This document shows positions 383 through 22,222 of a DNA stretch of 36,122 nt, piece after piece. The position numbers were made by a program, and so were the translations under genes. The number at the start of each line of letters is the position of its first letter. Within the stretch, counting starts at the first letter, position 1. The notes beneath the pieces are model-generated. The model was not told where the DNA came from. It was given only the letters and a program-made list of their open reading frames with translations, and did not search any database. Where the stretch lies: positions 1 to 36,122 of the forward strand of contig JADLBV010000002.1 in the NCBI GenBank assembly GCA_020847545.1, read 5' to 3'. Source of the DNA: Phycisphaerales bacterium. Its GTDB lineage: Bacteria > Planctomycetota > Phycisphaerae > Tepidisphaerales > Tepidisphaeraceae.

Positions 383-790
383 TCAGACGCGACGTTTCTT
401 GGGCGGTCGACAACCGTTGTGGGGCAGCGGGGTCACGTCTTCGATGCCCAGGATTTTGAGACCGGCGTTTTGCAACTGCAAAACGGCCTGTTCACGACCG
501 GCGCCGGGGCCTTTGACCTTGACTTCGACTTCAATCAGGCCGTGCTTGCGGGCCTGGTTGGCGGCGTTTTCGGCGGCCCGGCCGGCGGCGAACGGGGTGC
601 TCTTGCGGGCGCCCTTGAAGCCGACGGTTCCGGCCGATGCCCATGAAAGGGTCTCGCCATTGGTGTCGGTGATGGTCACCATCGTGTTGTTGAAGGTCGC
701 CTTGATATGGGCGACGCCACGGGTGACGCCTTTGCGGATGCGTTTTTTGGCGGCGGCCTTTGCGCCGGCTGCCTTGCTTGTTTCTGCCAT
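383..790 (-). CDS. rpsK: 30S ribosomal protein S11
   Basis: S11 of the 30S platform, which helps form the cleft holding the Shine-Dalgarno/anti-Shine-Dalgarno duplex. The 135 residues match the family length with a short Ala/Lys-rich N-terminus. Family motifs are visible: [20 protein letters not shown] (about residues 25-44) and the C-terminal [15 protein letters not shown], with the conserved NGCRPPK. The ATG at 788-790 is preceded by AAAGGA about 8 nt upstream. It follows rpsM after 143 bp that carry a heptad inverted-repeat element. Confidence 0.98.
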
Positions 791-819
791 GATCGATTTC
801 CTTTCGCGGATCGTCCGGT

Positions 820-931
820 CTAGGTGCTAGAAACTTGATACTAGAAACTAGAACTGGTGAAAAACGCCCGCAAATATGTAACCTATTCCCTCTACCTCTA
901 GTTTCTGTTCTCTAGTTTCTAGTTTCTAGAA
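820..931. repeat. Heptad inverted-repeat element in rpsM-rpsK gap (element A)
   Basis: The arm at 820-854 consists of five consecutive 7-bp units of type CTAGAAA (variants CTAGGTG, CTTGATA, CTAGAAC). After about 42 bp comes an opposed arm at 897-931 of five units of type TCTAGTT or TCTAGAA, so the arms are mutually inverted. On the minus (coding) strand the first arm begins 2 nt after the rpsM stop codon. In RNA it could fold as a long imperfect hairpin between the two cistrons. Confidence 0.8.
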
Positions 932-933
932 CT

Positions 934-1320
934 TTACTTGCCGAGTTCCTTCACGCCCTTCTTGCCGGCGACGGTTTTGCGCGGACCTTTTCGGGTGCGG
1001 GCATTGGAGCGGGTGCGCTGGCCGCGAACCGGCAACGAACGCCGATGGCGGTGGCCACGATAGCTGCCGATGTCGCGCAGGCGGGCGATGTTCTGTTGAA
1101 TCTGGCGGCGGAGGGCGCCTTCGACGGGATAGGACTTGTCGAGGATGCCGATGATTTTCGCCAGTTCCTCCTCGGTCAATTCCTTGGCCCGGCGCTGGGG
1201 ATCGATGCCGGCTTCCTTGAGAATGGCACGGCTGTTGGTCGGGCCGACGCCATAAATGTAGCCAAGGCTGACCCAGATGGGTTTATCGTTGGGAATATCA
1301 ACGCCTGCGATACGGGGCAT
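934..1320 (-). CDS. rpsM: 30S ribosomal protein S13
   Basis: S13 of the 30S head, which contacts S19 and the P-site tRNA and forms inter-subunit bridges. It begins [20 protein letters not shown] and carries the helix-two-turn-helix region [20 protein letters not shown]. The basic tail has the conserved [20 protein letters not shown]. The length of 128 residues is slightly above the usual 115-125. The ATG has GGAG 5 nt upstream. It is the second gene behind the internal promoter at 1513-1541. Confidence 0.98.
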
Positions 1321-8410: not shown

Positions 8411-8499
8411 CATTTTCGATTCAGATTGTCGATTTTTGATCAAGCCGCCGAACCGCCGGCTCCCAATCACAAATCAGAAATCCATAATCAAAAATTTCG
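8411..8499. repeat. Heptad inverted-repeat element in rpsQ-rplN gap (element B)
   Basis: The left arm at 8411-8444 has units of type GATTNNN (one of them 6 bp long). A 20-bp GC-rich core follows, then a right arm at 8465-8499 of five in-phase units beginning AATC or AATT. The arms are inverted relative to each other. On the coding strand the array starts 2 nt after the rpsQ stop codon. It has the same layout as elements A and C. Confidence 0.78.
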
Positions 8500-9557: not shown

Positions 9558-9667
9558 GATTTTTGATTTGCGATTATTGATTTTCGATTTTGGCCGCTGC
9601 CAATCGTCCATCATCCGCAAATCAACTTTTTCAATCGAAAATCCAAAATCAAAAATCTAAAATCCAT
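9558..9667. repeat. Heptad inverted-repeat element in rpsC-rplP gap (element C)
   Basis: This is the clearest copy. Five perfectly phased units of type GATTTTN occupy 9558-9592, a core of about 40 bp follows, and five perfectly phased units of type AATCNAA occupy 9633-9667. The two arms are inverted relative to each other. On the coding strand the array starts at the very next base after the rpsC stop codon (9668-9670). The transcript could form an A/U-rich stem of about 35 bp with mismatches. Confidence 0.85.
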
Positions 9668-15476: not shown

Positions 15477-15905
15477 GTGAGCCTGCCGGCAGAAATCTCG
15501 CTCCTCACCGCGGCATTGGATCTGAAGCTGATCCAGATGCTTCGTCAGGCCATGCAGCCGGCCGGCCAAAGCACTGGCGGCCTGCCGGTTGTACAAACCC
15601 CCGCCGCCATTTACGAGCCGCGACAGCACCTGCACCCCACCCCGCGCATCGAGCCGCGGATGGTGTATCACCCTACACCACGGATCGAACCACGGCTGGT
15701 CTATCATCCCACGCCCGACACCGCTCCCGCGCCGCCACCGGCCGCCCCGCTGCCGCCTCCTTGCAAACCCTTTTCACCGATTCCACCGGTCTGGAAAAAG
15801 TTGCCGCCGATTCATCATGAACAATCGGCCGGCCCAAAGATAAAGGTTGTTCATCGTCCGCCCGATATCATTCATAAAGGATCGCTGATCGACTTTTTCA
15901 TGTGA
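15477..15905 (+). CDS. Uncharacterised Pro-rich protein with 12-residue repeats
   Basis: Not recognised. From a GTG at 15477 it has 142 residues; a TTG 51 bp upstream and an internal ATG at residue 21 are alternatives, and none has a clear ribosome binding site. The N-terminal 25 residues look like an amphipathic helix (AEISLLTAALDLKLIQMLRQ), followed by two tandem copies of HPTPRIEPR[M/L]VY and a partial third, a Pro/Ala stretch and a basic C-terminus. The two repeat copies differ at seven synonymous codon positions and one amino acid, which favours a real protein-coding gene. No signal peptide or membrane segment is evident. Confidence 0.6.
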   Translation: MSLPAEISLLTAALDLKLIQMLRQAMQPAGQSTGGLPVVQTPAAIYEPRQHLHPTPRIEPRMVYHPTPRIEPRLVYHPTPDTAPAPPPAAPLPPPCKPFSPIPPVWKKLPPIHHEQSAGPKIKVVHRPPDIIHKGSLIDFFM

Positions 15906-19990: not shown

Positions 19991-20264
19991 TAGGCTCTGC
20001 CTGAAAACTCCGGTGGCCCACGATGGACCGCAAACAGGCCGGTGGCTAGGCGTCGGCGACGAAGCAGTATTTGGTATACTACAGCGAGGAGCCGCAACGA
20101 CGCCAACGGCCTGTTTGCGGTCCACCGAAGGCGGCATGAAATCGGCTCGTCCGCTTCGTTGGAACCGCTCAATGGCTCATCAAGAGCCGGTTTTCGCGGT
20201 TCCGCCTCGCGGCCAAGCCGATTTGATGCCGTCGTGGGCCGCCGGAGTTCTCAGGTAGAGCCTA
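19991..20264. mobile_element. MITE-like element with 36-bp terminal inverted repeats
   Basis: The ends 19991-20026 and 20229-20264 are inverted copies matching at 32 of 36 positions. Both termini read TA followed by GGCTCT inward, consistent with TA target duplication as in IS630/Tc1-type elements. Inside are two further inverted repeats. One pairs 20025-20041 with 20107-20123 (17 perfect bp), with a small apical hairpin at 20066-20080. The other is an imperfect stem of about 30 bp between 20139-20168 and 20196-20224, with apical hairpin 20174-20188. No transposase is encoded. Folded as one strand it is a three-way junction. Confidence 0.75.
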
Positions 20265-22051: not shown

Positions 22052-22072
22052 ATGGCCGTACACGAACCCACT

Positions 22073-22171
22073 CCCTCTCCCTGTACCCAGGGAGAGGGCT
22101 GGGGGAGAGGGTTTTTCGTGATGGAAATAAGAACCCTCTCCCTAACCCTCTCCCTGCGTACAGGGAGAGGG
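22073..22171. repeat. CCCTCTCCC hairpin cluster
   Basis: There are two perfect 11-bp hairpins with 4-nt loops (22073-22098 and 22146-22171, stem CCCTCTCCCTG). A third stem lies between them (22103-22113 with 22132-22142). All use the same CCCTCTCCC word in alternating orientation, as in REP/BIME-type repeats. It lies between the small ORF and the DUF58 gene and would form strong structure in their mRNA. No coding sequence is seen here. Confidence 0.8.
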
Positions 22172-22222
22172 AATTAAGGCTCAATCCATAAAATTTCTGT
22201 CATGGTCTCCGAATCCATCCAA

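Follow-up and report, generated by a model that had tools for sequence, protein, structure and literature searches.

A mirrored heptad element of variable spelling behind a stop codon in a planctomycete ribosomal region

The intergenic space between rpsM and rpsK in a Phycisphaerales bacterium (genome G000) contains two mirror-image arrays of a 7-nt unit. This period-7 inverted repeat, element A, lies at positions 820-931 of the window, by which we mean the whole 36,122-nt stretch of DNA that was analysed. We give a probability of about one half to the reading that element A is a DNA-level inverted heptad element, which turns over quickly, is tolerated just behind a stop codon and has arms that are copied between loci. 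Elements of the same architecture occupy positions behind stop codons in other ribosomal gaps; their period is fixed at 7 nt and their words are many.

By our reading of gene order the window covers the S10-spc-alpha ribosomal region, which lies on the minus strand; among named relatives in the collection, a metagenome genome of the Phycisphaerales comes closest, with an S13 protein 98% identical. The upstream gene, rpsM (30S ribosomal protein S13; 934-1320, minus strand; Pfam Ribosomal_S13, E 2.9e-29), and the downstream gene, rpsK (30S ribosomal protein S11; 383-790, minus strand; Pfam Ribosomal_S11, E 8.4e-46), are ORFs that delimit a gap of 143 nt (791-933, minus strand). Gene names other than these two and the Pfam-based pair at locus C32 (below) are taken from gene order. 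The left arm of element A (820-854; the 3' arm in the direction of transcription) consists of five CTAGAAA-type heptads, the core of 42 bp spans 855-896, and the right arm (897-931) consists of five inverted TTTCTAG-type heptads. On the + strand the left arm reads CTAGGTG CTAGAAA CTTGATA CTAGAAA CTAGAAC and the right arm TCTAGTT TCTGTTC TCTAGTT TCTAGTT TCTAGAA; just two of the five left units are exact CTAGAAA, the remaining three deviating at 1-3 positions. The arms are 79% complementary over 34 nt, and TRF independently reported a period-7 array in each of them (827-853 and 897-929). With the rpsM stop codon at 934-936 (minus strand), 2 nt separate it from the end of the array. A first-pass annotation of this DNA had described a CTAGAAA/TTTCTAG unit in a layout of five copies, a core of about 42 bp and five inverted copies, starting 2 nt after the upstream stop; the layout is correct to the base and the distance to the stop is confirmed.

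The inverted-repeat score of element A is 20. None of 3,000 dinucleotide-preserving shuffles of the 143-nt gap reached this value (maximum 14), whether or not a period of 7 was required. A search of the genome for arms and core jointly found no second matching place. We rejected the possibility that element A is an intrinsic terminator: no T run follows it on the coding strand, and a terminator scan of positions 700-1400 (loops of 3-8 only) returned a sole candidate at 752-773 on the + strand and none at element A. At the Rfam gathering score the window matches only 5S and LSU rRNA, and element A is unmatched.

The window also holds repeats of other kinds. A dispersed inverted repeat, CCCTCTCCC...GGGAGAGGG with GGTTAGGG, occurs at 22072-22172 and again on three G000 contigs (L151 13875-13991, L148 41-141 and L145 18608-18741); another, around GGCCTGTTTGCGGTCCA, is found in nearly identical form at 20016-20132 and at L152 828-933. 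A period-36 tandem repeat of about 2.3 copies (15633-15757) adjoins C-rich repeats.

A scan for inverted repeats with self-similar arms revealed a marked preference for a period of seven. The best lag was 7 in 33 of 49 cases at ribosomal loci of the bacterial family and in 31 of 51 at those of other planctomycetes, while every other lag from 3 to 13 accounted for 0-5 cases each. The excess is smaller in general genome samples than in ribosomal loci: set against one within-100-nt mononucleotide shuffle per locus, lag 7 was best in 14 of 53 cases versus 5 for G013 (420,000 bases) and in 7 of 36 versus 3 for G000 (686,292 of 3,746,627 bases). Two of the seven G000 hits (L157 and L185) are G+C-rich and doubtful, and five were counted as credible; G000 contigs L140 and L155, which are N throughout, were excluded from the counts. 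Loci L034-L042 and L044 were excluded from the scan by hand; nine of these are copies of family genomes counted elsewhere, and L037 is not. The scan yielded 85 period-7 elements, some of them weak, with 55 distinct words. These elements, together with the occupation of the rpsM-rpsK gap in 8 of 19 genomes described below, support the first-pass proposal of a family in which one architecture is combined with differing words. Of 32 elements in ribosomal gaps, 31 begin at -2 to +12 nt relative to the stop codon, and the remaining one begins at 39.

A common spelling rule was considered and rejected. Taken over rotations and strands, the 55 canonical words carry 4.5 bits, compared to 3.92 for letter-permuted words (sd 0.13, maximum 4.24 of 40). 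The words lean weakly towards (A/C)AA(C/A)TGA, and because the trend is weak and related words are not independent we claim no rule. Stop codons do not account for the words either (a stop on either strand in 64%, versus 61% when permuted), and the concentration of unit variation at fixed positions is too weak to be of use (551 versus 525.1, sd 13.6, a value reached by 82 of 2,000). By eye, the cores of two GATTTGC elements of G023 (L288 1508-1618 and L295 683-797) appear to contain a nested heptad-like inverted repeat of GATCTGA type.

For comparison of orthologous gaps, rpsK was searched in G000 and 40 relatives and matched in 35 of the 41; the rpsM-rpsK gap was compared only where a locus carried both genes. 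Among 19 readable genomes of the bacterial family the gap holds a period-7 inverted repeat in eight, another inverted repeat in two and none in nine, with the gaps of G021 and G022, heptad-like by eye but failing our criteria, counted as other or none. The words differ: CTAGAAA in G000, AGGACTG in G002, AGTTGCC in G005 and G016, AGGATGA in G013, ATGACGA in G014, AGTAATG in G015 and GGTGATT in G020. G001, a congener of G000 (S13 and S11 98% identical), carries a CACAGAG-type inverted repeat of another period at the place of element A. The CACAGAG-type repeat of the G001 gap (L120) is also present elsewhere in G000, at about L183 9105-9190. In the gap read as map-rpmJ, which by appearance bears a promoter, a heptad inverted repeat was found in none of 13 genomes.

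The same gap frequently contains a hairpin of a different nature. In 13 of the 19 family genomes (L005-L009, L011-L016, L018 and L019) rpsK is preceded by GCGGG-GA-CGGC ... GCCG-GNN-GA-TCCGC, which we take to be a kink-turn layout. Within these 13 genomes, picked for showing the hairpin, 96.6% of cells are paired, 10 cells are changed on both sides compared to 2.0 in shuffles, and the covariation score was reached in none of 500. No Rfam family matches the hairpin; we regard it as a candidate ribosomal protein leader. In the window its 3' half (CCGGACGATCCGC, coding strand) lies at 806-818 (minus strand), and the 5' half is absent from its normal position. The core of element A contains GCGGGCG at 865-871 (coding strand), which resembles the 5' half of the leader hairpin; we do not count this as evidence that the core is older host sequence, because the same string stands in the core of the G002 element beside an intact leader.

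Further elements are present in G000. A second element of like architecture, with the word GATTTTN, occupies the gap read as rpsC-rplP (9558-9664), and a third GATTTTN array pair, of poorer quality and scoring under our inverted-repeat threshold, lies in the gap read as rpsQ-rplN (8411-8495). Arrays resembling CTAGAAA or CTGGAAA occur at six G000 loci: two are inverted pairs at the usual threshold, namely element A and a pair at C32 (44990-45065); a third, poorer pair (C78, score 9) is detected only with the threshold lowered to 7, and arrays of related words without a detected partner lie at C53, C149 and C6. The first-pass proposal would have failed had the genome and its relatives contained no other CTAGAAA-type pair; C32, with the poorer C78, provides one in the genome itself. 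The inner boundary CTAGAGGTAG is common to element A and C32, and similar boundaries stand at C78 (CTTGAGGTAA) and C149 (CTAGAGGAGA); this likeness of letters hints that whole elements may share descent.

The C32 element (word CTAGAAA/CTGGAAA) allows a gain to be polarised, at this one locus. It lies between genes that Pfam identifies as a periplasmic binding protein and a permease of branched-chain amino acid type, and its array (L158 9968-10068) now provides the stop codon of the former. The same gene pair is without an element in G001, where the genes overlap by one base, and in G005, G007 and G014, where the gaps measure 26, 6 and 3 nt; therefore arms and core were gained together in the G000 lineage. 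In the more distant G010, G013 and G009 the gap is 51-67 nt and no heptad array is seen, and in G008 it is 714 nt. A search of the assembly with C32 arms and core gave as its only further full-length match the element against itself in reverse. No target-site duplication was seen at C32, though the first unit resembles the host flank.

Turnover is not confined to C32. All five credible G000 elements have an alignable place in G001, and in none of the five does that place hold a heptad inverted repeat. The counterpart of C32 is a clean absence; that of the rpsC-rplP element is 38 nt long with a few GATTTTG-like units in one arm; those of the elements on L156 and L183 are shorter gaps with possible faint remnants; and that of element A is occupied by the other repeat. 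No period-7 inverted repeat was found in 419,999 bases of G001. Heptad elements thus come and go among the species of a single genus.

If each locus homogenises its own heptad, as the first-pass annotation had argued, then units should be more alike within a locus than between loci. The mean best-register distance between units (of 7) is 1.75 within an arm, 2.74 between loci of a genome, 2.92 between genomes and 3.11 for permuted letters; the order is as expected, but the closeness within an arm is partly forced by the way in which arrays are detected. Of 176 same-genome element pairs, 42 have words within one mismatch (35 when the word is defined from one arm), compared to 7.5% under permuted genome labels (maximum 16.5%; 75 elements). 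Four words found in the ribosomal operon of G002 recur at many other loci of its congener G023: with 40 of the 260 candidates scored there are at least 70 matches, and 19 loci contain 14 inverted elements. An arm resembles same-word arms at other loci of the genome as closely as it does its own partner (0.882 versus 0.872; 96 comparisons for the 47 elements with a same-word partner), in a comparison where other loci receive the best of four arms and the own pair is selected for complementarity. Given that words are shared within genomes and within a genus, and that arms are alike across loci, we regard words as dialects of a genome or genus.

A local component is nevertheless apparent. Where a unit departs from the word, the opposite arm of the same element mirrors the departure in 139 of 282 cases, against 34.5% in a null model of reordered arms with the best register chosen (sd 2.2, maximum 40.5%; 74 elements), which supports either copying within the element or descent of both arms from one source. 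Homogenisation at each locus is therefore only partly right as an account: it fits the mirrored arms but not the words shared across loci, and it is not the main process.

The cores behave differently from the arms. No motif of 5-7 nt shared between cores exceeds its frequency in shuffles. Core pairs of same-word elements have a mean similarity z of 1.02, with 3 of 35 above 3, compared to 0.28 and 2 of 116 for different-word elements; cores are mostly unrelated, those of same-word elements being slightly more alike. At C32 the idea that the core is an earlier piece of host sequence was rejected, as the four relatives with short gaps lack it.

The reading that we prefer accommodates these data as follows. 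Two mirror-image arrays of a 7-nt unit flank an unconserved core, and the space separating a stop codon from the following ribosome-binding site would tolerate the element. Arms would be copied from locus to locus and from one side of an element to the other, possibly by replication-linked template switching or by gene conversion at short matches; the template switching in particular we infer. Slippage by 7 nt would alter the number of units. The spreading unit would be the arms, with the core incidental, and no function for rpsM or rpsK need be invoked. The inner boundary common to element A and C32, the slightly greater likeness of same-word cores and the lesser prominence of period 7 in general genome samples count against this reading.

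A less likely reading makes element A a REPIN- or MITE-like non-autonomous mobile element, with arms recognised by a transposase encoded elsewhere and with cores that diverge rapidly after insertion. REPINs, which are tied to RAYT transposases, are described in PMC3116915 as extragenic, hairpin-forming sequences with inverted conserved arms around a less conserved spacer, a layout like that of element A; the gain of C32 as a whole and the inner boundary that it shares with element A point the same way. Y1 transposases are present in all eight family genomes searched (49 matches), and one GATTTTN element shares a 3.4-kb locus with a Y1 gene of G000 (L281). However, the loci around 30 of the 49 Y1 matches from the eight genomes (89,766 bases) contain just four period-7 inverted repeats, none with the CTAGAAA word; each such locus has a single one, therefore none brackets a Y1 gene, and no linkage to RAYTs was found at these loci. 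The mobile reading also sits poorly with the largely unrelated cores of same-word elements, with the lack of a second place in the assembly for the arms and core of C32, and with the absence of a visible target-site duplication there. An improbable origin, and the one closest to the first-pass view, is growth that is purely local: polymerase slippage in a 7-nt register would expand a chance heptad, and the inverted copy would be made independently at each locus. The greater closeness of units within an arm than between loci, the mirrored arms and the different words of different genera in the same gap are all consistent with it, as is the proposal, credited to Mrazek and co-workers in PMC4679880 and PMC4692102, of a polymerase contact spanning 7 nt. 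Words shared inside genomes and one genus, arms at other loci as similar as an element's own, and the en bloc gain at C32 argue against it.

Selection on RNA structure, with element A as a hairpin that acts in the regulation or processing of the ribosomal mRNA, is in our judgement slightly less probable still. The gap folds stably as RNA (-43.3 kcal/mol, z -3.74, with none of 200 shuffles equally good), it is occupied repeatedly among the 19 genomes, and G001 places a different inverted repeat at the same site. If the stem were maintained as RNA, then G.T mismatches should be favored over A.C. Across 44 ribosomal-gap elements the coding-strand stems contain 39 G.T and 42 A.C mismatches (26 and 35 in 32 elements of the family, 13 and 7 in 12 of other planctomycetes), which offers no support for a function in mRNA, at the modest power that 81 mismatches provide. 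Neither is there a strand preference, given that the 5' arm is purine-rich in 20 elements and purine-poor in 23. The mismatches thus show no RNA-level signature; in addition, the criteria used detect no inverted repeat in the gap of nine of the 19 genomes, element A is without a terminator-like site, and turnover occurs within a genus. Least credible of all is a built-in 7-nt ruler, a dedicated process that would write mirrored arrays behind stop codons in the words of a lineage's dialect, so that spelling is replaced and only the period is inherited.

Repeats of 7 nt are known from several bacteria. The STRR heptamers and the heptanucleotide stem of the Nostoc tRNA-Leu intron, where complementary repeats form the two sides of the stem, are found inside a group I intron or as lone direct arrays; their TDNGATT consensus resembles GATTTTN, a likeness by description. 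The closest counterparts of element A are the heptamers of Xanthomonas (GGGAATC) and Nostoc (GGGGA(C/T)T), 7-nt units with mostly four per array, which are largely intergenic and lie closer to the 5' neighbouring ORF; in Xcc, 186 repeat patterns include 70 cases of two nearby sites in convergent, inverted orientation (PMC4692102). Like the Xanthomonas type, element A comprises tandem 7-nt units in a convergent, inverted intergenic pair near the stop codon of the 5' gene. The difference is one of spelling: those repeats have a single G-rich, quadruplex-capable word type (GGGANTN), whereas the elements described here have many words, and CTAGAAA has no G run.

Other systems are more distant. TAACTGA repeats of Beggiatoaceae, some Cyanobacteria and Bacteroidetes are intergenic and also occur inside ribosomal protein operons; they form 169 direct sets and one indirect, lie mostly immediately before start codons, and differ between two Cyanothece strains by indels of mostly 7 nt (PMC4679880). 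Element A is, unlike these direct repeats of one word, an inverted pair of another word behind a stop codon. In Geobacter metallireducens 15 of 16 class 3 sites have five tandem MTYCTGA heptanucleotides and the site classes are mostly paired; with a fixed consensus per class, they are read as binding sites of global regulators (PMC2700814). REPINs share with element A two inverted arms around a spacer, but their arms are REP 16-mers tied to a RAYT gene; those of element A are 7-nt arrays for which no such tie was found. No paper describing inverted heptad arrays with several words, or reporting such arrays from Planctomycetes, turned up in a search of the open-licence literature. On our best reading element A is a multi-word variant of the inverted heptamer repeats of Xanthomonas, a form that we did not find described.

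The papers considered here treat heptamers one word or class at a time, as quadruplexes, as sites of a TAACTGA regulator or as global regulator sites. At a single orthologous ribosomal gap within one bacterial family, we see genera differ in the word, with the period of seven and the mirrored layout unchanged. The question accordingly shifts from what a word binds to the reason for a unit of seven and the origin of mirrored arms, and closely related genomes can test both. The elements serve as quick markers at a site that is otherwise strongly constrained, and they point to a fast-changing class of repeats in which unit length is fixed at seven while spelling varies.
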